From Methylomonas albis (GTDB taxonomy: Bacteria; Pseudomonadota; Gammaproteobacteria; Methylococcales; Methylomonadaceae), in the NCBI RefSeq assembly GCF_014850955.1, contig NZ_JACXSS010000001.1, positions 5,270,001 to 5,334,000 of the forward strand: DNA of 64,000 bases, read 5' to 3'. A program made the translations under genes and the position numbers. Positions 23,574 through 62,190 of the stretch are shown here, piece by piece. How positions within the stretch are numbered: the first letter of the stretch is position 1; each line of letters begins with the position of its first letter. Below the pieces are notes generated by a model, which saw only the letters and a list, made by a program, of their open reading frames with translations, was not told the DNA's origin and did not search any database.

Positions 23574-23590
23574 TACCCAATAGGCATAAA
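23574..23590 (+). repeat. Short insertion family B (17 bp), copy 1
   Basis: TACCCAATAGGCATAAA sits inside RAYT copy 1. Removing it gives GATTGGCGTCACTCGTCC, which reads Asp-Trp-Arg-His-Ser-Ser, the conserved end of these transposases (compare Arg-Pro-Tyr-Ser-Ser-Phe-His in the 55-kb copy). It shares the pattern TAYCC, short spacer, RGG, then CAYAA with five other insertions in the window. Confidence 0.72.
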
Positions 23591-23721
23591 GGCGTCACTC
23601 GTCCTTTCATCGTTACGTGCAACAGGGCATTTTGAATCAGAATTGGTCGAGTTGTTTAGACTTGAATCTGGAATAACTTCGTAGCTTGAAATTTTTAAAC
23701 TTGAAAGATGAATTGAACCCG

Positions 23722-23757
23722 TAAGGCGGATACCCGATAGGGTGATCCGCCGAATGT
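23722..23757 (+). repeat. REP-type palindrome, copy 2 (upstream of RAYT copy 2)
   Basis: GTAAGGCGGATACCC, loop, then GGTGATCCGCC followed by GAATG. It is nearly the same as the unit at 22951-22985 and stands at the same distance from its RAYT start. The whole segment 22,941-23,676 is repeated at about 23,712-24,382, so this is a tandem duplication of REP plus transposase. Confidence 0.75.
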
Positions 23758-23863
23758 CGGCTTCAACTGTGGTGGTCTGTTTCGGGTAAGTTGCTGGTTT
23801 TGATATGGCGGAACGTCTGACGACTTCTGCCCTACGTCAACGTCATGAGGAGATGGTTTAATC

Positions 23864-24382
23864 ATGCCGGATTATCGACGTTATCGGGTGCCGGGTGGGA
23901 CTTACTTTTTTACGGTGAATTTACCGGAGAGGAAGCGAGATTTGCTGGTGCGGCATATTGGCGATCTTCGCGAGGCTGTACGGAAAACCAAGCAAGAGCG
24001 ATCGTTTCATATAGACGCTTGGGTGGTGTTGCCCGATCACATGCATTGTATCTGGACGTTGCCGCCGGGAGACAGCGATTTTTCCAACCGCTGGAAGGTG
24101 ATCAAGATTCGCTTTGTAAAATCGATTCCTGCAACCGAGCGCCGCTCAAAGGTGCGTAACGCAAGAGGCGAAAGAGGAATTTGGCAACGTCGCTTTTGGG
24201 AGCATGTGATCCGCGATGGGCGTGATTTTGCGGCTCATGTCGATTATTGCCATTGGAATCCGGTAAAACATGGCTTGGTGCAACGTGTGATCGATTGACC
24301 GCATTCATCCTTTCATCGTTATGTGCAACAGGGCATCTTGCATAAGGATTGGTCGAGTTGTTTAGATTTGAATTTGGATTAA
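23864..24382 (+). pseudogene. RAYT copy 2, interrupted by one in-frame TGA
   Basis: The first 144 codons are intact and give a Y1/IS200-like transposase: MPDYRRYRVPGGTYFFTVNL, VVLPDHMHCIW with the HxH motif, and YCHWNPVKHGLVQRVID. A TGA at 24296-24298 stands where the family has Trp, and the frame then continues for 27 more codons (PHSSFHRYVQQGILHKDWSS and on) to a TAA at 24382. Read through, the protein would be 172 residues. It is either a recent nonsense mutant or a slightly shortened protein; the catalytic tyrosine region could still be made. RAYTs mobilise REP palindromes, and one lies just upstream. Confidence 0.8.
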
Positions 24383-24441
24383 TTTGGCGAGCAGCCGATT
24401 AATTTGGCAATGACTATTAGGAACAATCGGAATAGTTAATT

Positions 24442-24735
24442 ATGACGACAATATTGCAAAGTTTGAACCAGCAAAAAGCCCGGATTACCGCGATAGCCGG
24501 TCAGTATCACGCCGTCAACATCCGCGTGTTTGGTTCTGTAGCGCGAGGAGATGAGCGTGACGATAGTGATGTTGATTTGCTAGTCGACTTTATGCCCGGT
24601 AGCACATTGTTGGATCAAGTGGGTTTGATCGACGCCTTGTCGTTGGAATTGGGGCGAAAGGTCGATGTGGTGAGTGGGCGTGCGCTAAACAAATTCTTAC
24701 GTGAAAAGGTCTTGCAAGAAGCAGTTCTGTTATGA
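24442..24735 (+). CDS. mntA: MntA-type minimal nucleotidyltransferase antitoxin
   Basis: A 97-residue protein with the MNT signature GSVARGDERDDSDVDLLVDF near residues 31-50, which fits the GSX10DXD pattern required for nucleotide transfer. In characterised MntA/HepT pairs this enzyme adds AMP units to a tyrosine of the HepT toxin and silences it. The next gene is a HepT homologue overlapping by four bases (ATGA), which is the standard arrangement. Motif and context make the call secure; activity of this pair is inferred. Confidence 0.9.
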   Translation: MTTILQSLNQQKARITAIAGQYHAVNIRVFGSVARGDERDDSDVDLLVDFMPGSTLLDQVGLIDALSLELGRKVDVVSGRALNKFLREKVLQEAVLL

Positions 24736-25082
24736 AAGACCGTTTGATTTTCATTTCGGCAGCTTTGGAAAGCATTGAGTTAATTCAGTCTTATACCGCT
24801 GGTTATGATTGGGTGAGTTTTTGGGGGGATAGGAAAACTCAGGATGCGGTGATTCGCAATCTGGAAATCATTGGACAAGCACTGAAAGATTTTGGTGTGG
24901 ATACGTTGTTGGAAACGGCGCCAAGTATGCCTTGGCGGGAAATTGCAGGCATGCGCAATGTATTGGCGCATGAATATTTGGGAGTGGATGTAGAAATGGT
25001 TTGGGACACTGTGCAATGCCATCTTGAGCCCTTGCAAGGGGCGCTCGAAACGCTAATGGAAGGGGCTGATGGTACTCAGTAA
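24732..25082 (+). CDS. hepT: HepT-like (DUF86) RNase toxin
   Basis: A 116-residue helical protein with RNVLAHEY at about residues 76-83, matching the RX4HXY active site of HEPN-family HepT ribonucleases. The final tyrosine is the residue that MntA modifies. The start overlaps the end of mntA by four bases. The 3' end overlaps the next gene (DsbA-like) by 14 bases, so all three may be translated from one message, although the third gene is not a usual partner. Confidence 0.9.
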   Translation: MKDRLIFISAALESIELIQSYTAGYDWVSFWGDRKTQDAVIRNLEIIGQALKDFGVDTLLETAPSMPWREIAGMRNVLAHEYLGVDVEMVWDTVQCHLEPLQGALETLMEGADGTQ

Positions 25083-25854
25083 GTCGTTTATTTTTTCAAA
25101 ATTAGTAAAGACCGTTATCGGCTGCAGATGGGCTGTGTGGTTACTTATTTATAGCGTGTCGACAAGCATTGCCTACGCCGAAGAAAAATGGGTTGCCGAC
25201 GAAATTTTTACGCAAATGTCTGAAATGCGTAAGGAAATCGGCCAATTGAAGGACCGGGTTGCCGGTTTGGAGCAGAAACTGGCGGAGGCGCAACCGAAAG
25301 CGGCGCCCATATCGTTAGTCGGTAGCGAGAACATGACATTGGGTAAGGCGGATGCCAAACTGGCGATCATCGAGTTTTCTGATTATGAATGCCCGTTTTG
25401 TGCCAAGCATTATAAAAACGTGTTGCCGAAACTGCGCGAGCGTTACATCGACAAGGGCGTGATCCAATATGTGATGAAGGATTTCCCGTTGGAGTTCCAT
25501 GCCCATGCCAGGAAAGCGTCGTTGGCAACGCGTTGCGCCGGCGAGCAAAAACAGTATTGGGCCATGCACGATGCGGTTTTCGAGGCGCACGGTCTGGTTA
25601 GCGACGAGTTGATAGGCAGCGTTGCCAAGCAGCATAAGCTGGATTTGGCGGCATTAACGCAATGCATGGATGATCCGGCTCAATTGCGCAAAGTAGAAAG
25701 CGACATGGCCTTGGGTTCTAAGCTGGGTGTCAACGGCACACCGGCGTTTTTGGTTGGGCGGATAAAAGACCGGCAATTGGTGGATTACAAGCGTTTCGAT
25801 GGCGTTCAGTCGCTCGAAACCTTTGCCGGCATGATAGAGAGTTTTAAAAAATAA
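25069..25854 (+). CDS. DsbA-family thiol-disulphide oxidoreductase (exported)
   Basis: A 261-residue protein. The N-terminus has a basic stretch and a hydrophobic segment ending near AYA (about residue 37), a likely signal peptide. A short coiled coil (SEMRKEIGQLKDRVAGLEQK) follows at about 50-70. The thioredoxin-like domain contains EFSDYECPFCAKHY with the CPFC active site near 107 and the cis-proline loop GVNGTPAFLVG near 224. It probably oxidises or isomerises disulphides in the periplasm. Its start overlaps hepT, but it also lies directly upstream of the giant surface-protein gene and could serve the folding of exported proteins. Confidence 0.88.
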   Translation: MVLSKSFIFSKLVKTVIGCRWAVWLLIYSVSTSIAYAEEKWVADEIFTQMSEMRKEIGQLKDRVAGLEQKLAEAQPKAAPISLVGSENMTLGKADAKLAIIEFSDYECPFCAKHYKNVLPKLRERYIDKGVIQYVMKDFPLEFHAHARKASLATRCAGEQKQYWAMHDAVFEAHGLVSDELIGSVAKQHKLDLAALTQCMDDPAQLRKVESDMALGSKLGVNGTPAFLVGRIKDRQLVDYKRFDGVQSLETFAGMIESFKK

Positions 25855-25895: not shown

Positions 25896-28800
25896 ATGAA
25901 AACACAGTTCGTTAAAGCCTTTTATACATGGGTGTTGATGTTGGGTCTTGCCATGACCGGAGAGTCGGCATTGGCCAATGTGCTGGATGAAAACTGTATC
26001 GTCAATATTCTCAATCGAACCGTGCAGGTCAGCAAGGACGGCGGCTGGTCGATGCCGAACGTGCCCTCGCAAATGGGCCGGGTCAGGGCGCGGGCCACGT
26101 GTACCATTCTCGGAGATACATTTTCCGGGGAAAGCGACTACTTCAACGTCGTGCAAAACAGCGTGGTCAACGTCCCGGACATCAAATTCGATAACATTGA
26201 TCCGATTCCGGTAAGTTTGAAGGTCACCGAGCCTGCCGTCGAGACTTTATCCAGCCAAGGCGCGATTGCGCAGTTGAAAGTCGCCGCTACCTACCGCGAC
26301 GGTACAGTCAAGGACGTGACCGCGTCCGGCAACGGTACCAACTACACCTCCAGTAACCCGGCTATCGTTAGCGTCAATACCGATGGTTTAGTCACGGCAG
26401 TATCCAGTGGCAGCGTATTGATTACTGCGCGCAAGGATGAAGTGGTTGCTTTCAAGCGCATCAACGTCGTGACGACCGGCGATGCCGATAACGACGGTCT
26501 GCCCGACGATTTTGAAATAGCCAACGGCTTAAACCCGAACGACCCATTGGATGCATTGGAAGATCCGGATAACGATGGTCTGACCACCAAGCAGGAGTAT
26601 CAGGCTGGTACCAATTTTAAAGTGGCCGATAGCGACGGCGATGGTTTGATCGACGGCGTTGAAGTTTCCGGATCGAAGGGTTACGTTACCGATCCGTTGA
26701 AAGCCGACACAGACGGCGATGGCGTTAACGACAATGACGAAATCTTGGCCGGTTATAACCCCACCGATAAGTCCGACGGCGGCGGCCGCAGCTTCGTGGA
26801 GCTGGTTATTGCACCCGCTAACCCAACCATGACCTTCAATACGGTCTATAACGAGGCTAATCTGCAAGTCAAGGTTTCCGGTAAGCGTAGCGACGGCAGT
26901 TTGGTCGACCTTACTGCCAAATCGAGCGGTACTAGCTACAGCTCTAGTAATCTGAGTGTTGTCAGTTTTGGCGGCAAAGACGGCTTATTGTTTGCCGGCC
27001 AGTCCGGTACGGCGAATCTGACGGTGCGCAATAGCGGTTTGGAGAAAACCGTTACCGTCACCATCGGCACTTTCAATCCCACCGCGTTGGCGTCAATTAG
27101 TATCCCCGGCTATGCCAATAATGTTGACGTCGCCGGCGATTACGCCTACGTGGCGGCCGGCAGCAAGGGGCTGCAAATCGTCAACGTGTCCAATCGTTCC
27201 GCGCCCAGCATCGTCGGCAGTCTGGATACCGCCGGTACCGCAATCGACGTGCGTGTCGTCGGCAATGTGGTTTATTTAGCGGACGGCGATCACGGTTTGC
27301 AGGTCATCGACGTCACCGATCCGACCGCTCCGAGCCTTATTGCGTCTTACGAAACGGCCGGCATCGCCCAGGACGTCAAAATCGACAACCAGTTTGCCTA
27401 CATTGCGGATGGCAATAACGGCCTGGAAATTGTTGACGTTCGTAAACCAAACCAACCTTTATTCGCCGGAGCCTTAAACGGTCTAGGCGAGGCAAAAGGG
27501 GTGGACGTGCAGGGTAATAGCGTAGTTGTTGTCGCCGGCAGTTCATTGCACGTGATTGACATCACCGACAAGGCTAATCCGGTCAAAAAAGGAAGCCTTG
27601 GTATCGGGCCGGTACAGGACGTTACTTTAAAAGACGGCTACGCTTACGTTGCCGCCTATTCTTCGGGTTGGAAAGTGGTTGACATTCGTGATGCCACGAA
27701 TCCGGTTGCTGTAGCTGGCAACGCCAATTTCGTTCCCCGCGACATTGAATTGACTGACGGTTTCGCCTTTGCAGCGGAGCAGTTGTTTCCTAATGTGACC
27801 GCTTACGTCAACATTGAAGACCCCGAAAATGCGGTGTTCCAGGGTACCATCGACCTGTCGGGCCTCGGCGATTATGCCGGAACCGGTATTGCGTTGGATA
27901 GCAATTATGTTTATGTAACCGAGGAATCCTATGTAGTAAGTCAGGACTACGGCTCCAATGGTACGACGCGGTTGTTCATTGCTCAATACCGATTGACCGA
28001 AGACAAAGGTGGCGTTGCTCCCACCATAGAAATCACCGAACCGCCGCAAGATACTGTTGTCGTCGAGGGCAAGAAAGTGACGATAACTGCAAACGCCGAC
28101 GACGATATCGGTGTGAAATCGGTATCGTTCCTGGTCAACGGGCAAGTGGTTTATACCGATACCTCGCGGCCCTATCAGTATCCGGTCACCGTACCCTTCG
28201 GCACGGTCGGCAGTACGATTTCCATTACCGCCAGGGCGGCGGATTTTGGCGGAAACCAGGAAACCACGCCGGTTTTAACCTTGACCGTACAAGCCGATAC
28301 CGACCGTGACGGTTTGAGTGACGAACAGGAAGCTATTTTCGGATCGAACCCCGCGAATCCCGACACGGATGGCGATGGCATTAACGATGGCGACGAAGTC
28401 GATATGCATACGAGTCCGATCGATACCGACTCGGATGACGACGGCATCGTTGACGGTGTCGAGTTGCAGAAAGGTACTGACCCTCTGAATCCTGATGTTA
28501 CGCCGCCGACGGTGAGTTCAACATCTCCAGCCAACGAAACGACAGACATTCCGGAAAATAACCCGATTATTGTTTCCTTTGGCGAAGCCCTGCAGGCCAA
28601 ATCTATCAATACTGATTCGATTTCTGTTTATAAGGGCTTATTGGAAGGTGCAGCTAAAGTTGCCGGTCGAGTACGCTTGTCAAGTGACGGACTGCAATTG
28701 ATTTTTACGCCTAGCGATATCCTTGATGATTACACGGAATATAAAGTCGTCGTCGATGGTGTCAGGGATCGCGCCGGCAATCCTATCGCGACGGCTTATA

Positions 28801-31800
28801 CCTTTCATTACAAAACCGGCAACACGGTTGATACAACGCCGCCGACAGTTTTGGGGGTCGATCCGAATTCGAACAGCACCAATGTGCCGGTCAATGTCGT
28901 CATCGCAGTCCGCTTCAGCGAGCCGGTACATGCCGACTCGGTTAATGACCAATCCGTAACCGTTTACGACGATGTAACCGGTCAACCGGTGCTTGGCGTA
29001 GTAACCCTGAGCGGGGATGGGCAGAGTGCGACTTTCGTGCCGAACCGGGCTTTGGCGGTTGGGCGTCAACACCATATATACATGACCAACGTCATCAAGG
29101 ATTTGTTTGGTAATCCGTTGAGTTCGGGTTACTACTATTTCACGACGTCCTTCGATAAAGACGCTACCGGACCGAAAATCACCGGTTACAGTGTGGATGC
29201 GGTTCAAAGCGGTGTACCGACGAATGCGGTACTGCAAGTGCAATTCGACGAGCCGGTGAGCGGTTTGAGCTTGGGCGGCGTGGAACTGCGTAAGAGTGGC
29301 GAAACGATTGCGACGACCCGCGAACTGAGCGGCGACCGCAAAACCCTGTCTTTGAAACTGCAGCAACCGCTATTGGCCAACACCGCTTACAGCCTGCATG
29401 TCGAAGGCGTGGAAGACCTGAGCGGCAACGTGTTGGCGGCGCCGGGCGATCGTAGTTTTACGACGGGCGCGGGTGCGGACTTGCAGTCGACCAGTGTGTT
29501 GCAGTACAGCCCGGCCAATAACGCCACCGGTGTTGGCTTGAACGCCGGCATCGTGGTCTCGTTTGCCGAGCGGATCAACCCGCTGTCGATCAACGGCGAC
29601 AGCATCCGGCTGTACGATACCGTCACCGGCCAATACCCGGCGGTGACCAGCGCCATGAGCAGCGACGGCAAGACGCTGACGCTGACGCCGACGGCCGCCT
29701 TGGTGGCGAACCGCCAGTACTACGTCTACGTCTCGTACTATGACTATGTGTATGATCAGGGCGGTAACCGGATTAGCTATACCTCTTGGTATTTCAAAAC
29801 CGGTACGGCCACCGATTTGGAAGCCCCACTGGTCAGCGGCAGCAACCTTGTCGACGGCGCCACCGGCATTGCCGTCAACAGCAAACTGCGTTTCGTACTT
29901 GACGAAGCCGTCAGCCCTTACAGTGTGGCAGGCAGTGTGCACCTGCGAGTCAACGGTGTCGATGTGGCCGGCACGGCCGTACTGGGTAGCGACAACCGTA
30001 CCATTACCTTTACCCCAAGCAGCGCGTTGGCGGTTAATACCGAATACAGCGTAGTGCTGGACGGCCTCTATGATTACATCGGCAACAAATTGGCGCCGGT
30101 CACCAGTCACTTCACTACCGCCGCGACTGCTACCGCCGACACAGCGGGCGCCACGGTAACCATCACCCCGGCCAGCGGTGCGAGCGGTATCAGCGTTAAC
30201 ACGCCGATCAGCTTCACCTTTAGCGAAGCGATAGACCCGACTACCTTGGACAGTGGCATTACGGTCAATGCCAGCGGCTATAGCGGCGAGTTGGCGGGCA
30301 CTTTTGCCCGCAACGGCAATGTCGTGACCTTCAGTCCGCTGTCGCCATTACCCGGCAATACAACGATCTACGTTTACGTCAACGGCGTATTGGATCTAGC
30401 CGGCAACAGCAACAGCTACCGGTCTCAATCCTTTACGACCGGTGTTGGCGGGGATACCACCGCGCCGCAACTGTTATCCATCACCCCGAACGACGGTGCG
30501 TTGGACGTCTATGGCAACAACCCGATCGTGTTGAGTTTCTCCGAGTCGCTGAACCAAAGCACGGTCAACAGCAACAGCGTGGGCCTGTTCGTCAACGGCA
30601 GCATTGTTCGGCCGTCGATCAGCTTCTCCGGCGATAGCCGTACCGTGACGCTGAACTACAACCTGCCGGCCTCTAGTGTGGTGACGGTCTTGTTGACCAA
30701 CGACATCAAAGACCTGAGTGGCAACCGCTTGGCCGATACCGCGAAAGTTTTTGCGACAACAGCGACCAGCGATACCACGCGGCCCAGCATCGCCACGGCC
30801 TTGCCGGGCAATGGCGCCTACAACGTGCTGTCGAAAAACAAAGTCGTGCTGTACAGCAACGAACCGCTGAAAGGCAGCAGCCTGCAAAGTGCCTTGCACG
30901 TCTCGCAAAACGGCGTGTTGGTCAACGGCACGGTGCAACTGATCGGCGATGGCCGTACCCTGGTCTACACCCCGGCGCAACCTTGGGTGAAAGAAGCCTA
31001 TATCGAAGTATTCCTGGACAGCACGGCGCAAGACCAGTCCGGCAATGCCTTGAACAGCTTCCATAGCCAATTCCGGATCGAGGAAGACCCGGCGCAGAAA
31101 GCACCGTATGTGGTGAACCTCAACTTCAATTACTACTACTATTACAACAATTACAATCCTAACCTGCCGTTGAACCCGGTCATCGACCTGCAGTTTAACG
31201 AAGCGCTGGATCCGAGTACCGTTAACAGTTCGACCTTGGTGCTGCGTGATGGTTACTATGGTAATGAAGTGCCGGTAACGGTCAGCTTGTTGAAAGGCAG
31301 TCGCGTGGTCCGTTTACAGCCGACAGACCCATTGACGGCCAACCAGTACTATTATGTTGGTATTCGTAGCGGTTTGAAGGATGCCGGCGGCACGACGACC
31401 GAGCAAGCCTCCGACTATAACTGGAGCTTTAGGACCGGTGATGCTGAAGACGGCATTGCACCGAAGGTCACGGCCTTGAGTCCGGCCGATGCAGCGACCA
31501 ATGTTGGCATCAACAACCGGATCTCGATCCGCTTCGATGAAGCGGTCAGCCCGATCAGCTTCCTGGGCGATGATGTCGATCTGCCGTTGGCACAAGTACC
31601 TAATAGTGATGCCCGTTACTACTCGTTGAGCTTTAGTGACAACAACCGGCAAGTGACGTATGTACCGCATGAACCCTGGCCGGCGGATAGCGATGTCACG
31701 GTCACGGTGGATCAAGCAGAAGACTATGCCGGCCACTTGGTGACGCCATTGAGCCACACCTTCCATACTGCTAACGGTCCGGATACCACCGCACCGACCA

Positions 31801-34800
31801 TAGAGGAATGGAGTTTTGTCTCTGGTGCCACCAATGTACCGGTCAATGCCATCTTCGAGGTGCGCTTGAGCGAACAGGTCGATCCGGTGTCGGTCAACGA
31901 CAGTAGTTTCTACCTCTACGACAACGTTAAGGGCCAAAAGGTGGCAGCCAGTCATAGCGTGGGCGCCGATGGCCGAACTCTGACGCTGGTGCCGGATCAG
32001 GCCTTGGCGGTGGGACGTAGTTATTACCTTTATGTTTACCCTGTTCAGGACATGAACGGTAATAACGTTTATGGCTATCGCAACTTCACCACGGCGCTGG
32101 CGGTCGACAATGCTGCGCCGCAAGTGAGTGGTTACAGTATCGATGCCGATCAAATGGGTGTGCCGACCAACGTGCAGTTGCAAGTGCAATTCGACGAGCC
32201 GGTGAGCGGTTTGAGCTTGGGCGGCGTGGAACTGCGTAAGAGTGGCGAAACGATTGCGACGACCCGCGAACTGAGCGGCGACCGCAAAACCCTGTCTTTG
32301 AAACTGCAGCAACCGCTATTGGCCAACACCGCTTACAGCCTGCATGTCGAAGGCGTGGAAGACCTGAGCGGCAACGTGTTGGCGGCGCCGGGCGATCGTA
32401 GTTTTACGACGGGCGCGGGTGCGGACTTGCAGTCGACCAGTGTGTTGCAGTACAGCCCGGCCAATAACGCCACCGGTGTTGGCTTGAACGCCGGCATCGT
32501 GGTCTCGTTTGCCGAGCGGATCAACCCGCTGTCGATCAACGGCGACAGCATCCGGCTGTACGATACCGTCACCGGCCAATACCCGGCGGTGACCAGCGCC
32601 ATGAGCAGCGACGGCAAGACGCTGACGCTGACGCCGACGGCCGCCTTGGTGGCGAACCGCCAGTACTACGTCTACGTCTCGTACTATGACTATGTGTATG
32701 ATCAGGGCGGTAACCGGATTAGCTATACCTCTTGGTATTTCAAAACCGGTACGGCCACCGATTTGGAAGCCCCACTGGTCAGCGGCAGCAACCTTGTCGA
32801 CGGCGCCACCGGCATTGCCGTCAACAGCAAACTGCGTTTCGTACTTGACGAAGCCGTCAGCCCTTACAGTGTGGCAGGCAGTGTGCACCTGCGAGTCAAC
32901 GGTGTCGATGTGGCCGGCACGGCCGTACTGGGTAGCGACAACCGTACCATTACCTTTACCCCAAGCAGCGCGTTGGCGGTTAATACCGAATACAGCGTAG
33001 TGCTGGACGGCCTCTATGATTACATCGGCAACAAATTGGCGCCGGTCACCAGTCACTTCACTACCGCCGCGACTGCTACCGCCGACACAGCGGGCGCCAC
33101 GGTAACCATCACCCCGGCCAGCGGTGCGAGCGGTATCAGCGTTAACACGCCGATCAGCTTCACCTTTAGCGAAGCGATAGACCCGACTACCTTGGACAGT
33201 GGCATTACGGTCAATGCCAGCGGCTATAGCGGCGAGTTGGCGGGCACTTTTGCCCGCAACGGCAATGTCGTGACCTTCAGTCCGCTGTCGCCATTACCCG
33301 GCAATACAACGATCTACGTTTACGTCAACGGCGTATTGGATCTAGCCGGCAACAGCAACAGCTACCGGTCTCAATCCTTTACGACCGGTGTTGGCGGGGA
33401 TACCACCGCGCCGCAACTGTTATCCATCACCCCGAACGACGGTGCGTTGGACGTCTATGGCAACAACCCGATCGTGTTGAGTTTCTCCGAGTCGCTGAAC
33501 CAAAGCACGGTCAACAGCAACAGCGTGGGCCTGTTCGTCAACGGCAGCATTGTTCGGCCGTCGATCAGCTTCTCCGGCGATAGCCGTACCGTGACGCTGA
33601 ACTACAACCTGCCGGCCTCTAGTGTGGTGACGGTCTTGTTGACCAACGACATCAAAGACCTGAGTGGCAACCGCTTGGCCGATACCGCGAAAGTTTTTGC
33701 GACAACAGCGACCAGCGATACCACGCGGCCCAGCATCGCCACGGCCTTGCCGGGCAATGGCGCCTACAACGTGCTGTCGAAAAACAAAGTCGTGCTGTAC
33801 AGCAACGAACCGCTGAAAGGCAGCAGCCTGCAAAGTGCCTTGCACGTCTCGCAAAACGGCGTGTTGGTCAACGGCACGGTGCAACTGATCGGCGATGGCC
33901 GTACCCTGGTCTACACCCCGGCGCAACCTTGGGTGAAAGAAGCCTATATCGAAGTATTCCTGGACAGCACGGCGCAAGACCAGTCCGGCAATGCCTTGAA
34001 CAGCTTCCATAGCCAATTCCGGATCGAGGAAGACCCGGCGCAGAAAGCACCGTATGTGGTGAACCTCAACTTCAATTACTACTACTATTACAACAATTAC
34101 AATCCTAACCTGCCGTTGAACCCGGTCATCGACCTGCAGTTTAACGAAGCGCTGGATCCGAGTACCGTTAACAGTTCGACCTTGGTGCTGCGTGATGGTT
34201 ACTATGGTAATGAAGTGCCGGTAACGGTCAGCTTGTTGAAAGGCAGTCGCGTGGTCCGTTTACAGCCGACAGACCCATTGACGGCCAACCAGTACTATTA
34301 TGTTGGTATTCGTAGCGGTTTGAAGGATGCCGGCGGCACGACGACCGAGCAAGCCTCCGACTATAACTGGAGCTTTAGGACCGGTGATGCTGAAGACGGC
34401 ATTGCACCGAAGGTCACGGCCTTGAGTCCGGCCGATGCAGCGACCAATGTTGGCATCAACAACCGGATCTCGATCCGCTTCGATGAAGCGGTCAGCCCGA
34501 TCAGCTTCCTGGGCGATGATGTCGATCTGCCGTTGGCACAAGTACCTAATAGTGATGCCCGTTACTACTCGTTGAGCTTTAGTGACAACAACCGGCAAGT
34601 GACGTATGTACCGCATGAACCCTGGCCGGCGGATAGCGATGTCACGGTCACGGTGGATCAAGCAGAAGACTATGCCGGCCACTTGGTGACGCCATTGAGC
34701 CACACCTTCCATACTGCTAACGGTCCGGATACCACCGCACCGACCATAGAGGAATGGAGTTTTGTCTCTGGTGCCACCAATGTACCGGTCAATGCCATCT

Positions 34801-36285: not shown

Positions 36286-36574
36286 CGGAAAATTTCAAGC
36301 TAGTTGTCGCCTCAATATAAAATTTTATGCGGCTATTTTGTTGGGATTCACGACCTCCTGGGGCGAGTTGTTTTGGGTTTCGGCATGATCCGGATTTAAG
36401 TGCACGGTATGGACTCTGTTCCAGTTCCGGGTGTTTTGGCTCCAGCGCCGAGGGTTTTGGCGGCGGGCGTCTTCATAAAGCGCTTTGCGTTGATTCAACA
36501 GCGCCTCGTCCAATCCAGTATGGCGTTGGGCCGGGGTCACGAAACCAATAGCACTATGTCGATGCTCGTGGTTA

Positions 36575-36592
36575 TATCCTGAAGGTCATAAA
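36575..36592 (+). repeat. Short insertion family B (18 bp), copy 2
   Basis: TATCCTGAAGGTCATAAA on the plus strand, opposite in orientation to the other two copies in the same IS. Removing it joins the orfB codons for His-Trp-Tyr and Asn-His-Glu, the expected family sequence. It is the most divergent member but keeps the TAYCC, RGG and CATAAA elements seen at 23574-23590. Confidence 0.68.
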
Positions 36593-36788
36593 TACCAATG
36601 CACTAAATCGGCCACCCATTCACGAGCGACGCTCAGATCGGCCAACGGTTTCAACGGGTATGGCGGCCGATATTTCAAGGTTTTGAACAGCGATTCCGAA
36701 AACGGATTGTCGTTACTCACTGCCGGATGACTCAGCGAGGGCATGACGCCGAGCTGTTGCAGTGTGGCCAGTATGGTGGCACCTTTCA

Positions 36789-36805
36789 CTTGTGCCCTGT
36801 GGGTA
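36789..36805 (-). repeat. Short insertion family B (17 bp), copy 3
   Basis: On the minus strand it reads TACCCACAGGGCACAAG, identical to the copy at 61932-61948. It splits orfB two codons after the catalytic aspartate (HSDNGS). Removing it restores the frame to MKGATILATL. Confidence 0.8.
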
Positions 36806-37438
36806 TGTGGCTACCGTTATCGGAATGCAGGATGACTTGCCCAGGTTGTAGACCTTCGCGCCCAACAATATCCCGCAACAGCTCGCTGGCGTAGTGGCTG
36901 CTTTCTTCTGCAAACACCTGCCTGCCGACGATCTGGCGACTGAAAATATCGAGGAACAGGTAGAGATAGTAGAACTGGCCTTTGATGGCGGTCGGCAGAT
37001 AGGTAATGTCCCAACTGTAAAGTTGTTTCGGTGCCGTCGCACTTAAGGCTTTGGGCTTGGTGCGAGGCTGGCTAGGGCGTTCACTGCGGCGGTGTTTCAG
37101 TTGCCGGGCGACTTTTAGAATGCGATAGATCATCGATTCAGAGCCCAGATAAATGCCCTGATCTGCCAGGCGCGGAACAATCTGGCTGGGTGGGCAATCC
37201 GCAAATTCAACGGAATTGACCACGGTCAAAATGTGGGTGCGCTCGGCCTCGGTCAACGCCTGCGGTGGCGTGTATTGCCGCAGCGGTCGCCGGTCTTCGC
37301 CCAGGGCTTTACCGGCTTGCCAGCGCTGCAAGGTGCGCGAACTTAAGCCCAACACCGCACAGGCTTGGTCTTGGCGGGCACCGGCCATGGTCGCTTCGGC
37401 GACGGATTCAATCAGGTGTTGGCGCGGCTGAAGGGATG

Positions 37439-37958
37439 TCATTCGACCTCGCCCGCCAACAGCGCCCGGACCTTTTCTAGTGCCCCGTGTGGGTATTTGC
37501 AGGATCAGCAAGGCAGCGGCTTCAGCCAGGGCCTTGTCCTTACGGTTGAGTTCGCGTTCCAGGCGTTGATTCTCGGCTTTCAGGCTGCGCAAGGTCAGGC
37601 TGTCATCACGTCCTGAAGCAGTGCGGGTAACGGTGCAGAAATCACTTTTCCACTGGATAAGTTGATGGGCAAATACGCCACGCTCCCGACACCAGGCATT
37701 CAGCACTTCACCGATCAAACCATGACTTTCCTGAAGGGCCAGCAAGCGTTCTTCGGGGCGTCAATCTTGGGGACGTTTGGCCGGATTGGGTTTTGGAATA
37801 TCGGTCGGTGCTGTTTGGCTCATCCAGGTTTTTAAGGTATGTATGCTGAGGTTAGATTCGTCGGCAATGTCTTGAATGGTTCGTGTTCCACGATTGTAGA
37901 CTTTCGCCAGGGCTTGCTCTCTGAACTCGTCAGAATACTGCTTTTTCGGGGTAATCAT
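37439..37958 (-). pseudogene. IS3-family orfA with a nonsense codon and a short insertion
   Basis: Starts MITPKKQYSDEFREQALAKV with a helix-turn-helix (TIQDIADESNLSIHTLKTWM) and continues, past a TGA at 37761-37763 where the frame otherwise stays open, through a leucine-zipper region (LKAENQRLERELNRKDKAL). A 19-bp insertion (37477-37495) lies after ALLILQ. Removing it from the 520-bp span leaves 501 bp, exactly 167 codons, and the end reads LQKKVRALLAGEVE followed by a TGA that overlaps the orfB ATG. The TGA at 37761 probably replaced TGG. Confidence 0.82.
37477..37495 (-). repeat. Short insertion family B (19 bp), copy 4
   Basis: On the minus strand TACCCACACGGGGCACTAG. It interrupts a run of A in orfA; excision leaves CTGCAAAAAAAGGTCC (Leu-Gln-Lys-Lys-Val). 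It differs from the 17-bp form only in the spacer (two extra bases) and one base in the tail. Confidence 0.8.
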
Positions 37959-38226
37959 TTTTTATCTCAAATTTAAAAGGTTATAAAAATTTGAGGCGAC
38001 AACTATTCTGACGCAGGGGGTCACTGAGTAACAGGGATTTTTTACAGCCGATGAGCCGTTTAATTTGAAAGAGGATGAATAATTTGCAATGCGGAATGTC
38101 GGCTATTTGAAGTACTGCAGACATAGCAGACTGAATAAGGTGACTGGCGGCAAAGGGTCGATTGTGATGTGACTACACTAAACCGGACACACTTTTAAAA
38201 TAACCTGAAAAACGTGTGAAGCCAAA

Positions 38227-39332
38227 ATGAGCAAAGAAAAACCCAGCACCTATTCAGCCGAATTCAGAGCGTCAGCCGTCAAGTTGGCGAATGAATCCGA
38301 TAAATCGATCAGTCAGGTAGCCCAGGATCTTGGTATTAACGTTAATACCCTGCATACCTGGATAGGCAAATTCAGTCAGCCCAAAGACAGCAATAAAACG
38401 GTCCGTACCAACGAACATCTGCACGATGAGCTCAAGCGCTTTAAGAAAGAAATGGCCCGATTGACCGAGGAGCTCGAGTTATTAAAAAAGGCAGCGGCGT
38501 ACTTTGCCAAGGCACAACGGTCGACTGCAAGGATGCAGGAGGTAGGGCAACTCAGGAGCGGTTGCCGAGAAGTACGCCTGGATAAAACAGCATTCAGAGG
38601 AATTTACGGTGGATGTCATGTGCCGGCTTATGAATGTATCCCGAAGCGCCTATTACGAACGGCTGAAGCGCTGCCCTACGGTACGCGCAGCCTCAAGGCC
38701 GCCTTGTCCGCTCCGAACCGAACCGTCAGTCGTCGCTTGCTGCGCGAGGCAGCGTTAGTCAGTAAAACCAAGCGCAAATTCAAAGCCACGACGAGTTCGA
38801 AGCATCATCAACCGATTGCAGACAATTTGCTGGACCGGCAATTCGCCGTGGAAAGCCCAATCAGGTCTATGCCGGCGACATCACCTATACCGCAACACAT
38901 GAAGGCTGGCTGTATCTGTCCGTGGTCATAAACCTTTATTCCCGGCAAGTCGTGGGGTGGTCGATGGCTGAACACATGCGGACCAAACTGGTTAACGACG
39001 CGCTACTGATGGTGGTTTGGAAGCGCAAGCCCGAGAAAGGCTTGCTATGGCATACTGTCGCTGCAGCAGATAGCCACCGAGCCTTATTGAAGCAACACGG
39101 CATCCGGCAAAGCATTAGCCGTAAGGGCAATTGCTGGGATAACGTCGTGTCGGAAAGCTTCTTTCACACCCTGAAAACCGAACTGATTCATCACCAGACT
39201 TATCGAACTCGAGTCGAGGCCGGACAAGCCGTGTTCGAATATATCGAAGTGTTTTATAACCGCGAGCGACTTCATTCCGCAATTGGCTACCTGTCGCCCG
39301 TTGACTACGAATTGCAGCTCAAAGCTGCTTAG
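38227..39332 (+). pseudogene. IS3-family transposase (orfA-orfB), degraded
   Basis: orfA (MSKEKPSTYSAEFRASAVKL, then LKKAAAYFAKAQR) is intact up to residue 98, where a 47-bp family-A insertion (38522-38568) replaces its stop. Excision would leave CGGTGAAGTACGCC, the expected end of orfA and start of orfB. orfB has lost a segment after LKRCP, another inside SAPNRTVSRR, a single base near 38,858, and the DRGSQYA region carrying the second catalytic aspartate (replaced by a few bases at about 39,057-39,068). The C-terminus with the catalytic glutamate (NCWDNVVSESFFHTLKTELI) is present. It cannot be active. Confidence 0.85.
38522..38568 (+). repeat. Short insertion family A (47 bp), copy 2
   Basis: Starts CGACTGCA, contains GGATGCAGGAGGTA and ends GTTGCCGA, as in the other two copies. 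It lies between CGGT and GAAGTACG of the IS3 orfA/orfB junction. As in the two RAYT genes, the host bases either side are T on the left and G on the right. Confidence 0.8.
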
Positions 39333-54838: not shown

Positions 54839-54854
54839 CTTGTGCCCTTGGGTA
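54839..54854 (-). repeat. Short insertion family B (16 bp), copy 5
   Basis: On the minus strand TACCCAAGGGCACAAG. Removing it joins GGAATC to TGGCAGCGC (Gly-Ile-Trp-Gln-Arg), the sequence found at the same place in RAYT copies 1 and 2 (GIWQRRFW). Confidence 0.82.
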
Positions 54855-56448: not shown

Positions 56449-56679
56449 TCAACTGGCTAAAATGCCGAATGCGTTAATAACGCCGTAAAAAGAAGAACTC
56501 GATAAGGTGCGCCGATAGGATGATGACATGGACTCCTCCCCACCCCTAGCGGTGTCATCTGCCGCAGCGACAAGTTGTTGGCCCAAAGCTCGCATCGAGG
56601 AGGGAGAACCGACTACCATTAGTCCGTTCTCTTTGCCGGAATATGCGTGGAGCCAAAGTGGGTCGGGCTTTTTGTCCAT
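56449..56679 (-). CDS. Integron cassette protein, copy distal to intI
   Basis: A 76-residue protein starting MDKKPDPLWLHAYSGKENGL, with MVVGSPSSMRALGQQL following. It is the same as the neighbouring cassette protein through residue 70 and then ends differently (FGILAS), because the second copy of the 276-bp unit is cut off here. The function is unknown; the short alpha/beta look resembles small immunity-type proteins, but this is weak. It is the last cassette of the array and lacks its own attC. Confidence 0.5.
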   Translation of the reverse strand: MDKKPDPLWLHAYSGKENGLMVVGSPSSMRALGQQLVAAADDTARGGEESMSSSYRRTLSSSSFYGVINAFGILAS

Positions 56680-56744
56680 AGAGATCTAACGACAAGCTCA
56701 CCAGACCAAAAACCGCATCGCGGTTTTTGGTCTGGTGAAGCGCC
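56469..56744. repeat. 276-bp direct repeat (cassette duplication), copy 1
   Basis: Identical, by direct comparison, to 56745-57020. It spans nearly one whole gene cassette plus its attC-type hairpin. Perfect identity implies a very recent duplication, as expected if one cassette was captured twice or duplicated by recombination. Confidence 0.88.
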
Positions 56745-56755
56745 ATGCGTTAATA
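56684..56755 (-). other. attC site between the two duplicated cassettes
   Basis: ATCTAAC at 56684-56690 matches the RYYYAAC core, followed by a long palindrome (CTCACCAGACCAAAAACCGC and its complement) and AAGCGCC, with a degenerate distal core (GTTAATA) at 56749. On the minus strand the core is GTTAGAT, fitting GTTRRRY. The strong palindrome is what the integron integrase needs to fold the bottom strand. Confidence 0.72.
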
Positions 56756-56955
56756 ACGCCGTAAAAAGAAGAACTCGATAAGGTGCGCCGATAGGATGAT
56801 GACATGGACTCCTCCCCACCCCTAGCGGTGTCATCTGCCGCAGCGACAAGTTGTTGGCCCAAAGCTCGCATCGAGGAGGGAGAACCGACTACCATTAGTC
56901 CGTTCTCTTTGCCGGAATATGCGTGGAGCCAAAGTGGGTCGGGCTTTTTGTCCAT
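56698..56955 (-). CDS. Integron cassette protein, copy proximal to intI
   Basis: An 85-residue protein with the same first 70 residues as the distal copy. Its ending (WRFTRPKTAMRFLVW) is encoded by the attC hairpin, as often happens in cassettes. The segment SSYRRTLSSS is encoded by a 27-base match to the REP sequence beside the third RAYT (56772-56798), so a REP half seems to have become part of the coding sequence. The start ATG lies seven bases after the cassette recombination core. The function is unknown. Confidence 0.55.
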   Translation of the reverse strand: MDKKPDPLWLHAYSGKENGLMVVGSPSSMRALGQQLVAAADDTARGGEESMSSSYRRTLSSSSFYGVINAWRFTRPKTAMRFLVW

Positions 56956-57020
56956 AGAGATCTAACGACAAGCTCACCAGACCAAAAACCGCATCGCGGT
57001 TTTTGGTCTGGTGAAGCGCC
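56745..57020. repeat. 276-bp direct repeat (cassette duplication), copy 2
   Basis: Second, identical copy, directly abutting the first. It ends GAAGCGCC, after which the attC continues into TTGTTAGGGG of the neighbouring cassette. Confidence 0.88.
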
Positions 57021-57375: not shown

Positions 57376-59210
57376 GTGTACGCCCAGCATGGGCATGAAC
57401 TTATGGGGTGCAAGTCCCCTGTCGGAGAATTCAACGTTAATCATGTTAGCGATCATAACGACTAGCCGAAGGCAAAGGCAAGCCCGCGAGGGATTGTCTG
57501 AAGGAAGCCTAAGTGCAAAACGACGAGCCGACGAACAGAAATCGGATATAAGGCTGAGCAGCAGGGTCGAGTTGGCACAGGACAACGAAGGCCATGAATT
57601 CGCGCTGTACAGTAAATCCGGCGGTTGTGTCGTGACAGTTCATGTTCTTATCTGGGGAGATCTGAGACGCCAGCGGCTCTTGAAGAGCAGCGCGCATCGT
57701 AGCCATGCGGTGTGTGACGTTTCAGAAGTCAGCAGCGGTCATAGTAGCTTTGGCGGCGGGATTGCCGGCGGCGCGAAGGACCAAAGAAACAGGACAGGGC
57801 AGCGCCTTGTCAGACTCGGTATTGACGGAGCCTGCGACCCGCGGGAAGTGAGTGCTGGCGTATGACAACCGTGCACGCCTTGGAACAATCTTTACTGGAG
57901 ACCATCGTCGCCCGCGACAACCTGCAACGCGCCTGGAAGCGCGTGAAGGCGAACAAGGGCGCGGCCGGAGTTGATGCAATAGCCGTGGCGGATTTTCCGG
58001 CTTGGGCGCAACAACATTGGCCGACCATCAAGGCCCAATTGATGAGCGGCGACTACCAACCGGAAGCGGTCCGGCGGGTGTGGATACCCAAACCCAACGG
58101 CGATAAACGGCCGTTGGGCATCCCCACAATCGCCGACCGCGTCATCCAGCAAGCCATCGCGCAACAGCTCGCGCCGCACTTCGAGCGCGAGTTCAGCCAC
58201 AACAGCTACGGTTTCCGTCCCGGACGTAACGCTCACCAAGCCATCCGGCAAGTGCGCGACTATATTCGAGCGAAATACCGGATGGTGGTGGACATCGATT
58301 TGGCTGCCTTCTTCGACAACGTCAATCACGATGTGTTGATGCGGCTGCTCAGCCAACGCATCCGCGACAAGCGGGTGTTGCAACTGATCGGTCGTTATTT
58401 GCGCACCGGCGTCATCGAAAACGAGCAATGGCAAGCGACCCCGAAGGGTGTTCCCCAAGGTGGTCCGCTATCGCCGTTGCTGGCTAACGTCGTATTGCAC
58501 GAATTGGACGTCTACCTGCATCAATGCGGCCACCGTTTTGCCCGTTACGCCGATGACTTCGTTATCTGCGTGCGCAGCCTGCGGGCGGCGCAACGGGTGC
58601 AGGCCAACGTCACACGGTTTCTGGAACAGCGGTTGAAACTGCACGTCAATCTCAACAAAAGTCGTATCTGTACCAGCAACGAACTGGAGTTTCTCGGGTT
58701 CTGCTTCCGAGGCAACAAAATCGTCTGGAGCGACAAAGCGTTACACCGCTTTAAACATCGGATCAAACAACTCACGGGGCGCTCGTGGGGCGTCAGCCTG
58801 GCTTACCGCTACCGCGAATTGCGACGCTATATCGTGGGTTGGATGAACTGCTTTGCGTTATCGGAATATTACCGGCCAGTTCCCGAGCTGGACGAATGGC
58901 TACGGCGGCGCATGCGCTGTTGCTACTGGAAACAGTGGCGGTGGCCGCGCACCAAGATCAGCCATCTGGTCAGTTTGGGCGTCAGCCTGAAGGAAGCGAT
59001 TAAAACCGGCGTGAGCTCGAAAGGGCCTTACGCCATGTCGCGGACACCGATTACGCAGATGGCGATGAACAACGAGTGGTTAAAAGCGCAGGGCTTGGTG
59101 TCGATCAAAGACCAGTGGGTACGTTTTCATTACCCTGTTTCAACCGCCTAGTGCGGACCCGCATGCTAGGTGGTGTGGGGAGGGCGAGAGAGAAACTCGC
59201 CCTTACCCGA
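57376..59210 (+). mobile_element. Group IIC-attC intron (bounds approximate)
   Basis: The 5' end starts GTGTACGCCCAGCATGGGC, as group IIC introns do, followed by a long structured region and the reverse transcriptase gene. Downstream of the gene lies the domain V-like AGTGCGGACCCGCATGC and a domain VI-like hairpin (AGGGCGAG/CTCGCCCT) ending ACCCGA. The intron lies in an attC and is oriented opposite to the cassette genes, the known habit of the IIC-attC class, which recognises the bottom strand of attC. The ends may be off by one or two bases. Confidence 0.8.
57862..59151 (+). CDS. ltrA: Group II intron reverse transcriptase/maturase
   Basis: A 429-residue protein: RT0 and RT1 regions (RVWIPKPNGDKRPLGIPTIADR near 75), a VVDIDLAAFFDNVNHD box, GVPQGGPLSPLLANVVLHEL near 200, and the catalytic FARYADDFVICV near 230. 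A maturase (X) region with group IIC-like length and sequence ends the protein; no HNH endonuclease domain is present, typical of group IIC. All catalytic residues are intact, so the intron may be mobile. It assists intron splicing and retrohoming. Confidence 0.95.
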   Translation: MTTVHALEQSLLETIVARDNLQRAWKRVKANKGAAGVDAIAVADFPAWAQQHWPTIKAQLMSGDYQPEAVRRVWIPKPNGDKRPLGIPTIADRVIQQAIAQQLAPHFEREFSHNSYGFRPGRNAHQAIRQVRDYIRAKYRMVVDIDLAAFFDNVNHDVLMRLLSQRIRDKRVLQLIGRYLRTGVIENEQWQATPKGVPQGGPLSPLLANVVLHELDVYLHQCGHRFARYADDFVICVRSLRAAQRVQANVTRFLEQRLKLHVNLNKSRICTSNELEFLGFCFRGNKIVWSDKALHRFKHRIKQLTGRSWGVSLAYRYRELRRYIVGWMNCFALSEYYRPVPELDEWLRRRMRCCYWKQWRWPRTKISHLVSLGVSLKEAIKTGVSSKGPYAMSRTPITQMAMNNEWLKAQGLVSIKDQWVRFHYPVSTA

Positions 59211-59229
59211 TTAGGCGGCGAAACGCGCT

Positions 59230-59691: not shown

Positions 59692-59699
59692 TTTTCGCC

Positions 59700-59884: not shown

Positions 59885-60871
59885 ATGTCAAGTGAAAAAC
59901 GGCCCAGTTTGCTGGAAGATGTGCGCCGCGTGATGCGACTGAAACATTATTCCTTGCATACCGAACGCAGTTACTGCGACTGGATCAAGCAATTCGTCAA
60001 ATTTCACAAGATGACGGAACGGCAGGCCTTGTTCGATGACGGCGAGGCCAAGATCGAAGCGTTCCTGTCTTACTTGGCGACCCAGCGCAATGTGGCGGCG
60101 GCGACTCAGAATCAAGCCATGAATGCGCTGGTGTTTTTGTACAAGCAAGTCCTGGATAAGCCTTTGACTAAGCGCATAGACGCCATTCGCTCCAAAACGC
60201 ACCGCCATATTCCGGTGGTGCTGTCGGTGAACGAAGTGAAGCAAGTGCTGGCGCGATTGGAGGGCGTACCGCAACTGGTGGTCAAACTGTTGTACGGCAG
60301 AGGCTTGCGGATCAGCGAAGCCGTCCGCCTCAGGGTGCAGGACATCGATTTTGCCTACAAACAGATTACCGTGCGTTCCGGCAAGGGCGATAAGGATAGG
60401 GTGACGACTTTTGCCGCCACGCTGGCGCCTTTGTTGTTAAATTATCTCGATAAGGTCAAGGCGGTTCACAATAAGGATTTGGCCGAGGGTTACGGCGCGG
60501 TCTATTTGCCTTATGCGTTAGCGAAAAAATATCCCAATGCCGAGCGCGAATGGAGCTGGCAATATGTGTTTCCGGCGCGTTCGTTGTCGGCCGATCCGCA
60601 GTCGGGCGTGACTCGGCGCCATCATGTCGACCAGTCGCAGATCAACAAGGCTATACGGACGGCGGTTCGGCTGGCCGGCATCGCCAAGCAGGTTTCTGCG
60701 CATACTTTCCGCCACAGTTTCGCCACGCATTTGCTGCAGCGCGGCACCGATATTCGCACCATTCAGGCTTTATTGGGGCATAGCGAGCTGGAGACCACGA
60801 TGATTTATACCCATGTGTTGAATCAGGGCGGTCAAGGTGTCGTCAGCCCGTTGGACGATTTAGGGATGTGA
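59885..60871 (+). CDS. intI: Integron integrase
   Basis: About 328 residues from ATG at 59885 ([15 protein letters not shown]) with AGGTAGG just upstream. A tyrosine recombinase: catalytic Arg in [15 protein letters not shown], then [15 protein letters not shown] (His and Arg), [15 protein letters not shown] (His and the nucleophilic Tyr). It has the insertion peculiar to IntI, with [18 protein letters not shown], absent from other tyrosine recombinases. An ATG at 59771 would extend it through the palindromes and is rejected. It is divergent from the cassettes, as in all integrons. The frame is intact. Confidence 0.95.
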
Positions 60872-60875
60872 ACCC

Positions 60876-60903
60876 GTAAGGCGGATGCCATTGGGTGGAT
60901 CGT
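60876..60903 (+). repeat. REP-type palindrome, degenerate copy after intI
   Basis: GTAAGGCGGATGCC, then GGGTGGATCGTC. The head and half of the stem match the REP units at 22951 and 23722. It begins five bases after the intI stop and runs into the inverted-repeat element at 60908. Confidence 0.6.
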
Positions 60904-60907
60904 CTAA

Positions 60908-61072
60908 TTCTACTTTGTCAGATTACGAAAAAGGTTCCTCATACCCGCCGGGAAGTGGGTACCCAGTGCCATGGAGGGTAAGCTTCGATCCGTCGATGGA
61001 GTCTGGATTGCGGCAATCCCTGCCGAAAAGACGGACTTAGAGAGGTAGTTCGAGTAATCTGACAAAGTAGAA
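60908..61072. mobile_element. 165-bp MITE-like element with perfect 19-bp terminal inverted repeats
   Basis: TTCTACTTTGTCAGATTAC at 60908-60926 and its perfect complement at 61054-61072. The interior has no gene. It contains GGGTACCCAGTGCCATGG and GATTGCGGCAATCCCTGCC, both found again, in reverse, in the related element at about 61,791-61,985. No target-site duplication is clear. This is the form of a non-autonomous inverted-repeat transposon. Confidence 0.75.
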
Positions 61073-61091
61073 CTAACGGTATCCTCCCTAG

Positions 61092-61424
61092 TTACCCAAG
61101 CAACCTGCGGCTCAGCAATGCCTGTATATCTCTTCTACCGTCTGTAATGAGGACAATGTAAACCTTTTGACCTATTACACGGTAAATGATCCGGTATGGT
61201 TTGAAAAATGCTTGCCGGAAATCTTGAATACCTAATCCCAGTAATTCTTTTGGATAGGTCCCCCGGTCAGGGAAGTTGACCAAACTCTCAACAATCTCCA
61301 GCAAAGCGTCCAATACATAGTTGGCATTGGCTACGGAGTCGAACTCAGCGATGTAGTCGTAGATGGTTTCCAAATCCTGTTCGGCACCCTTAGTGAGCAA
61401 GGCTTCGTATTGTTGTTCCGACAT
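61092..61424 (-). CDS. ParE/RelE-family toxin
   Basis: A 110-residue protein with the ParE fold: EALLTKGAEQDLETIYDYIAE near the start, NFPDRGTYPKELLGLGIQDFRQ in the middle, and FKPYRIIYRVIGQKVYIVLI, DGRRDIQALL at the end. ParE toxins poison gyrase and RelE toxins cleave mRNA; the lack of a clear RelE catalytic set favours ParE. It overlaps the antitoxin gene by one base. No ParD is nearby; the partner is a Phd/YefM-type antitoxin. Confidence 0.9.
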   Translation of the reverse strand: MSEQQYEALLTKGAEQDLETIYDYIAEFDSVANANYVLDALLEIVESLVNFPDRGTYPKELLGLGIQDFRQAFFKPYRIIYRVIGQKVYIVLITDGRRDIQALLSRRLLG

Positions 61425-61699
61425 TACTTGCCGGATGGTTTTGCGCGTAGCCGAGCAACCACGTCGCCAACAGGCGTGACCTTGCCTTGTTCAATATCTT
61501 TATTACCAAGCGCCAGGAGTTTCAAGAGCGCCAACGTCTCCTGGGTTTCCTCGTAGGATGCAACATCCTGAAGCACTGCTTTGGCCTCGCCGTTTTGGGT
61601 GATAACCATCGGCTCACGCCGCTCGGTCAGTTGCAATAACACTTCGGCAGCGTTGGCCTTCAAATAGCTTATGGGTTTTACTTGTGTTGAATAGCGCAT
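61424..61699 (-). CDS. Phd/YefM-family antitoxin
   Basis: A 91-residue protein starting MRYSTQVKPISYLKANAAEV with MVITQNGEAKAVLQDVASYEE in the middle: the Phd/YefM DNA-binding and dimer region, followed by a charged C-terminal tail that should wrap the toxin. It comes first in the operon, as usual, and probably represses it. The pair may stabilise the neighbouring integron region. Confidence 0.92.
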   Translation of the reverse strand: MRYSTQVKPISYLKANAAEVLLQLTERREPMVITQNGEAKAVLQDVASYEETQETLALLKLLALGNKDIEQGKVTPVGDVVARLRAKPSGK

Positions 61700-62190
61700 A
61701 CAAATCTCGGCGAATCAATGTGTGGACTTAATGTAGTCTTTTAATGGTCGCCAAACAAGTTCAAAATGGTCACGATTTTGGCTTCTCGTTTAATTTTACT
61801 TTGTAGATTACGTGACAACCTTGTTCGAGAGCGTCATTCCGGCATGGATTGCCGGACCCGTTAGAGCGTGGAGCGAATCCGGACTCCAGGGATGGGGCTG
61901 AACTTACCATCCATGGCACTGGATACCCGCGCTTGTGCCCTGTGGGTATCCCGGCGAGCCTGTCGAACTATGAGCGGACTTAATCGTCCACCTTTCAACT
62001 TTGCTCGGGGCGAACGGTTAAGCCTTTTATGTGTCCCGTCCTAAACGGAAAGCCATGATTTTCACGGCCCCTATTTTAGTTTGGGATAGCTCCTTGAAGC
62101 CGCTGCTCCAGACCCCTCTCCCAAATACAAGCAGCACAGAAATCGTCAGCTTGAGATAATAAGCTTTCTGTTATTCATCTCGTCGTTTTC
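61700..62190. other. Intergenic region with a second, degenerate MITE-like repeat
   Basis: There is no gene. From about 61,791 to 61,985 it is related in reverse to the element at 60908-61072: it starts with a degenerate TACTTTGTAGATTAC and shares GATTGCCGGA-type, CCATCCATGGCACTGG and CCGGCG segments. It also carries the 17-bp family-B insertion. The final 200 bases before rep hold its presumed promoter; I cannot place the boxes with confidence. Confidence 0.55.
61932..61948 (-). repeat. Short insertion family B (17 bp), copy 6
   Basis: On the minus strand TACCCACAGGGCACAAG, identical to the copy in the IS3-family orfB at 36789-36805. Removing it leaves GCCGGGACGCGGGTATCCAG, which aligns without a gap to GCCGGGAAGTGGGTACCCAG in the related element at 60908-61072. 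This is direct evidence that it is an insertion. Confidence 0.85.

Follow-up and report, generated by a model that had tools for sequence, protein, structure and literature searches.

Six short stretches in a 64,000-nucleotide window of the 5.4-Mb Methylomonas albis genome (contig NZ_JACXSS010000001.1, positions 5,270,001 to 5,334,000) are copies of what is probably an ultra-small, non-autonomous mobile repeat of 16–19 bp with the form TA-CCC-(2–5 free bases)-GGG-CAYAAR, a reading to which we give a probability of roughly 0.7. Comparison of sequences indicates that the copies are insertions, that insertion is precise, and that the repeat is dispersed, prefers certain sites, shares loop variants within a genome and forms head-to-tail arrays. 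The copies, their uninterrupted counterparts and the insertion sequence (IS) element that carries three of them are given below, with positions numbered along the window; L and G numbers denote collected loci and genomes, respectively.

23574..23590, + strand: degenerate 17-bp copy TACCCAATAGGCATAAA in RAYT copy 1; the tandem paralogue is uninterrupted at this site
24295..24301, + strand: matching empty site in RAYT copy 2, from repeat spacing and alignment, joint approximate
36400..38150, − strand: IS3-family element with three copies, from BLAST of collected loci; its relative L125 has integrase-core domains
36575..36592, + strand: degenerate 18-bp copy TATCCTGAAGGTCATAAA, antisense in IS3 orfB
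36789..36805, − strand: 17-bp copy TACCCACAGGGCACAAG, sense in IS3 orfB with TGA next, zero consensus mismatches
37477..37495, − strand: degenerate 19-bp copy TACCCACACGGGGCACTAG near the end of IS3 orfA
54839..54854, − strand: 16-bp copy TACCCAAGGGCACAAG in a RAYT-like gene, at an insertion site common to L011 and L024
60905..61009, + strand: uninterrupted relative of the palindromic repeat at 61932, from BLAST to the joined flanks of L170 and reading of the sequence
61932..61948, − strand: 17-bp copy TACCCACAGGGCACAAG in a palindromic repeat whose family carries the insert in L111, L151 and L170

All six stretches named in the original prediction are present, and its proposal that they are insertions is borne out by empty homologues, which were found directly for 23574, 36575, 36789 and 37477 and by way of a relative for 54839 and 61932. 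The prediction took identical bases in homologues as the mark of ordinary sequence; homologues without the insert were found, and the proposal stands. In the tandem RAYT pair the repeat spacing is 723 before the insert at 23574 and 706 after it, a 17-bp difference that was confirmed by alignment. Copies of the same IS element lacking the insertions were also sought, as had been proposed, and an intact IS3 in the same genome (L178, G000:C1:4079528) is without all three inserts; it is one of five same-genome matches to orfB and shares 98% identity with the query over 666 of its 671 bases, with the upstream part more divergent. The insert at 36575 is absent from L178, L073 and L125 and present in L001, L003, L006, L156 and L157, that at 36789 is absent from L178, L156 and L157, and the site at 37477 holds a 17-bp form in L073, L100, L156 and L157 and nothing in L178. 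Some of the inserts are present and others absent in IS3 copies of M. fluvii and Methylomonas WSC-6. The empty sites for the last two copies are indirect: the joined flanks of L011 match an uninterrupted window paralogue of the site at 54839 (24161–24204), and the comparison for 61932 passes through L170 of the same repeat family.

The common motif that had been claimed is sharp in the copies at 36789, 54839 and 61932, which have no mismatch to the consensus TACCC-N2..5-GGGCAYAAR (unit size 16–19 bp), whereas the copies at 23574 and 37477 have one mismatch and that at 36575 has two. Six shuffled windows gave 0 matches at zero mismatches, 0–1 at up to one and 7–10 at up to two, compared with 12 at up to two in the real window; these 12 are the six noted copies and six other stretches (1592, 19675, 32037, 34983, 55492 and 57379), whose number is as chance expects. 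On these figures the three degenerate copies (23574, 36575 and 37477) could not be called from their own sequence, and it is the homologue comparison that shows them to be inserted.

Among the collected loci, an uninterrupted homologue was found for 78 of 210 copies, a redundant set in which overlapping loci repeat one site and poor matches (L066, L149 and L153) are included. When each flank was searched on its own, 30 left–right pairs had a gap of 0 (within 2) and 234 a gap of 15–19, most of the latter being the query copies themselves; three gaps measured 21–24 and eight were larger, the larger ones being read as neighbouring repeats. As predicted, no target-site duplication was seen at the homologue-compared sites or in the flank-pair comparison, where the joints are clean; the first base of the insert is often ambiguous because there is a T on both sides.

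The 182 deduplicated copies (Firmicutes included) were 17 bp long in 167 cases, 18 bp in nine, 16 bp in four and 19 bp in two, although length and sequence frequencies in this set are biased because the loci were fetched largely with the exact 17-mer bearing an ACA loop. Copy boundaries are sharp, and two conserved boxes flank a free spacer, which is 2–5 bases long between CCC and GGG in almost all copies. These two triplets are nearly invariant, an alternative paired stem (ACCT/AGGT) being found in one lineage only, and most differences between copies are in their loops or in the linked CACAAG/CATAAA endings. Head-to-tail arrays reach seven copies with a tandem pitch of 17 bp. Among the matches listed, which are those of genomes other than G101, G104 and G112, one or a few loop variants recur per genome (e.g. 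TCC, CTA, AT and GCA), and such recurrence is what copying from local masters predicts.

For the analyses of hairpin loops, spanning frames and A/T flanks, 36 locus ids (Firmicutes repeats and single background matches) were removed. In the resulting 139 distinct flank pairs, A occupied position −1 in 95 and T position +1 in 70, against a background of 0.24 each. The joint lay inside a hairpin loop with a folding energy of −5 kcal/mol or lower in 37 of 139, compared with 9.1% of positions nearby; with hairpin loops of any stability counted, the proportion was 0.52, against 0.35 nearby and 0.43 with mispaired flanks. Perfect flanking palindromes of at least 6 bp were found in 9 of 182 cases, compared with 0.96 when pairings were shuffled. 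Orientation relative to replication showed no bias (18 of 33 copies, with the contig start taken as the origin and IS copies counted separately).

The family extends beyond the six copies first described, with about 30 in this genome alone. The narrow pattern gave 26 matches there against 1 in the control, and the exact 17-mer TACCCACAGGGCACAAG, as at 36789, occurs nine times against 0 for the reversed control. With the wide pattern there were 34 matches, which on reading comprise 19 in transposase or RAYT-like genes, five in palindromic or other repeats, four in host genes, three unassigned and three that are probably chance; more of them could be chance because the control gives 10. The proposed pattern search in this and related genomes thus gave matches far above the reversed controls: counting this genome, the CACAAG form is present in 31 of 101 genomes, representing 10 of 38 genera, with one match in all for the control, and among 185 genomes drawn evenly from the class the wider form matched 33, six of which, again including this one, have at least seven copies, while the control never exceeded two. 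More distant genomes hold 60 (Endozoicomonas), 57 (a Spirochaetota metagenome-assembled genome, MAG), 51 (a Chromatiaceae MAG), 44 (a Sulfuricellaceae MAG) and 41 (a gammaproteobacterial MAG) copies with controls of 0–1; having been reached through the loci, all 30 genomes of this comparison match by construction, many at background numbers only. Viral contigs contained the exact 17-mer in only four stretches, a raw count with no expectation set against it, on which phage carriage was rejected.

Two observations concern the surroundings of the 17-mer elsewhere. In the Gallionella/Nitrosomonadales loci L077, L099, L113 and L143 a further small hairpin, AACCTCTTCGAGGTAAA, comes immediately after it and may be a second element of this kind. 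In loci from Alkalibacillus, Piscibacillus and Kroppenstedtia (e.g. L052, L053 and L119) the exact 17-mer lies in a longer repeat with a conserved downstream part, and its presence in these Firmicutes repeats may reflect either chance or a shared origin.

The claim that copies lie always inside a mobile element did not hold, as they are also found in trpB, purH, trpF and iscU (recognised by motif, without an aligned empty site), in intergenic palindromes and in self-arrays. The four host-gene matches of the wide pattern are in trpB, purH, an Rhs-like gene (by eye) and the 3′ end of a pyrG-like gene. Pfam supports TrpB and PurH in this genome and, in loci from elsewhere, TrpF and IscU/NifU, and all four of these copies are 18 bp long and in frame; they lie at or near protein ends, judging from where matches to solved structures start or stop (compared for TrpB, IscU and TrpF). 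Binomial figures for the 18-bp copies were set aside because they counted five host genes, among them the Rhs-like gene identified by eye. The 17- and 19-bp forms, plus some 18-bp copies, are in IS3, IS21, IS66 and IS110 genes, with 18-bp examples within IS3 genes at window position 36575 and in L100. The Pfam scan covered 30 of 73 spanning frames, and 12 of the 30 pieces had a transposase domain, one (L120) only a helix-turn-helix/terminase-like match, 10 no match and seven a non-transposase family. Among these seven, L013, L050, L194 and L226 (18 bp) were retained, L192 (18 bp) was dropped as an insertion because it aligns as ordinary decarboxylase sequence, and the 17-bp copies of L021 and L161 appear on reading to lie upstream of the true gene start. 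L045 was likewise rejected, being native gene sequence as judged by eye. The enrichment in transposase genes looks like the outcome of insertion at random, with copies that disrupt genes then removed by selection, a pattern that argues against either bypass or silencing. The repeat appears to add peptides to host enzymes.

Several points weigh against a mobile repeat. The case is a comparative one, and several of the carriers are draft MAGs. Flank homology gave 161 distinct inserts, of which only 22 had flanks unlike those of the query, and 16 of these 22 fit the strict pattern. The general preference for loops is modest when set against mispaired flanks (0.52 and 0.43). The 3-bp stem has little stability (−1.2 kcal/mol as DNA, z −1.5), and no fold is obtained for the form at 36575; together with the single lineage having an alternative stem, this suggests that the primary sequence may be the recognised feature. 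Finally, matches to solved structures begin after the TrpB copy and end at the IscU copy, and that for TrpF stops just past the copy without a clean gap.

Other explanations fare less well. An excision-footprint origin, in which a larger transposon (ends TACCC and GGGCAYAAR) would leave a 17-mer behind at every site, is quite unlikely: the two conserved boxes with their free spacer do resemble two joined ends with sharp boundaries, but homologous sites held 0 or 15–19 bp apart from the few wider gaps described above, spacers beyond 7 were tandem copies or combinations read as chance, and identical loop variants recur at many sites per genome, which footprints would not yield. No larger parent element was found, whether at the sites themselves or with a longer spacer, in loci chosen by short spacers, a choice that makes this search only a partial test. 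A targeted mark or scar that silences mobile elements, one option in the original prediction, would suit the 19 of 34 wide-pattern matches in transposase or RAYT-like genes, and is very unlikely in view of the copies in intergenic palindromes, self-arrays and host genes; RUP repeats of pneumococcus likewise hit IS genes, according to PMC2229807. The other option, an ultra-small mobile repeat, is the one that clean empty sites, dispersal and genome-specific loop variants favour. Translational bypass, in which ribosomes would skip the 17-mer and so render it harmless, we consider highly improbable; frame-disrupting copies do sit in IS transposase genes that are multicopy and, for the most part, otherwise open, but an intact IS copy could supply the transposase, the four Pfam-supported host-gene copies keep the frame (a small sample), and bypass would allow 17-bp copies within essential genes, none of which was recognised in the 30 of 73 spanning frames scanned. 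A chance motif or ordinary coding sequence can practically be dismissed. About 30 exact 17-mer matches are expected by estimate in the 257-Gb collection, L045 and L192 are native sequence and the widest pattern gives 10 control matches for 34 real ones, but the empty homologues and the near-zero controls for narrower patterns (26 against 1 in this genome) speak otherwise, and a chance origin for the main set was rejected by reversed-pattern controls and shuffles.

An element of RAYT/REP type (REP, repetitive extragenic palindrome) moved by a Y1 transposase is unlikely as well. The window contains RAYTs, a Y1-domain match is present in all 31 carriers of the CACAAG form, and hairpin potential and the absence of target duplication would fit; however, 59 of 70 non-carriers also have Y1, there is no fixed tetranucleotide target, and no Y1 match was found in the Spirochaetota MAG with 57 copies, a draft whose completeness is not established. 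Reverse transcriptase was not found in carriers G101, G105, G110 and G116 and was present in all four non-carriers tested, IS110 transposase was not found in carriers G298, G240, G105 and G112, and Y2 (IS91/Helitron-like) was not found in this genome or in carriers G023, G006, G053, G049, G152, G101, G105 and G112. All four families were rejected as the mobiliser, since none tracks the repeat and each is absent from at least one high-copy carrier, absences that are not final because several carriers are draft MAGs.

According to the mobile-repeat reading that we favour, each new copy arrives as an exact unit and duplicates no target bases, usually landing at an A|T joint and in palindrome loops above expectation. 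Movement may proceed by making copies of a short unit of single-stranded DNA or RNA, which a putative enzyme acting in trans would join into exposed hairpin loops. Transposases and miniature inverted-repeat transposable elements (MITEs) would be struck most often because they are dispensable, and broken IS copies could still spread on transposase from intact copies such as L178. It is conceivable, if doubtful, that the 17-bp selfish unit spreads across phyla without a dedicated transposase, host enzymes pasting its single-stranded copy into exposed hairpin loops; it would then be the smallest mobile DNA, with a categorically new mode of movement.

The favoured reading would make the 17-mer repeat one of the smallest mobile DNAs known. 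A 17-bp sequence that inserts precisely, hardly varies outside its loop among unrelated bacteria and multiplies genome by genome sets a lower size limit for mobile DNA and raises the question of which enzyme moves DNA too small for ordinary transposon ends; the high-copy carriers make the mechanism testable. The repeat also matters for the annotation of short IS frameshifts because copies break or fuse transposase genes. The frame remains open through the insert at 37477, from orfA into orfB, and in both L073 and the window IS3 the insert near the orfA end joins orfA to orfB in a single open frame, from which a fused transposase could be made without programmed frameshifting.

The window has further features of other kinds. 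A 48-bp insertion of a separate family (family A) at 23276–23328 in RAYT copy 1 is absent from copy 2 and has a related copy at about 38521–38568. A group II intron was assigned by Rfam at 57480–59211 (RF02001, RF01998 and RF00029), with an open frame at 57862–59151. An open frame of 3269 aa at 25896–35705 includes three repeat copies spaced 2946 bp apart, and there is a perfect tandem duplication of 276 bp at 56469–57020.

Some known systems share features with the repeat. The GC clusters and byp elements of yeast mitochondria are tiny, hairpin-like mobile insertions, and byps are skipped in translation; these differ in being mitochondrial, and translational skipping is argued against for the 17-mer repeat. 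Rickettsia palindromic elements also insert in frame into host genes and add peptide, but are much longer. IS200/IS605 elements have a fixed tetranucleotide target at the left flank; no such target was found here, only A at −1 being strong (67%). REP and REPIN sequences are short palindromic repeats in genomes that also carry RAYTs (PMC3116915, in part), whereas the present repeat is shorter, lacks a GTAG or CGTC end tag in its consensus, is inserted inside genes, and occurs in one carrier MAG without a Y1 match. RUP and other MITEs are non-autonomous and inserted in IS transposase genes (PMC2229807), but most exceed this repeat in length and have terminal inverted repeats as well as target duplications; no duplication was seen here. 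The paper on the small dispersed repeats (SDRs) of Nostoc is cited in PMC3116915 and PMC4390886. The exact 17-mer did not occur in any of the 20 papers listed from a literature search that ranked 300 of 634 matching papers. The Nostoc SDRs, as reportedly described by Elhai et al. (2008, Genome Res 18:1484), are 21–27 nt long and confined to a cyanobacterial subgroup. Like the present repeat they are very short, gene-less dispersed sequences in minitransposons and other repeats, with hairpin potential and no known enzyme; the present repeat differs from them in its length of 16–19 bp, its occurrence in a Spirochaetota MAG as well as in gamma- and betaproteobacteria (no separate search of cyanobacteria was made) and its preference for A|T and palindrome loops. 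The SDRs are characterised by a conserved secondary structure with compensatory changes; for the present repeat the observations on this point are the almost invariant CCC/GGG, the one ACCT/AGGT lineage and the weak fold. The earlier view that no described element fits is thus answered in part, the Nostoc SDRs being of the same kind as the 17-mer repeat and its closest counterpart.

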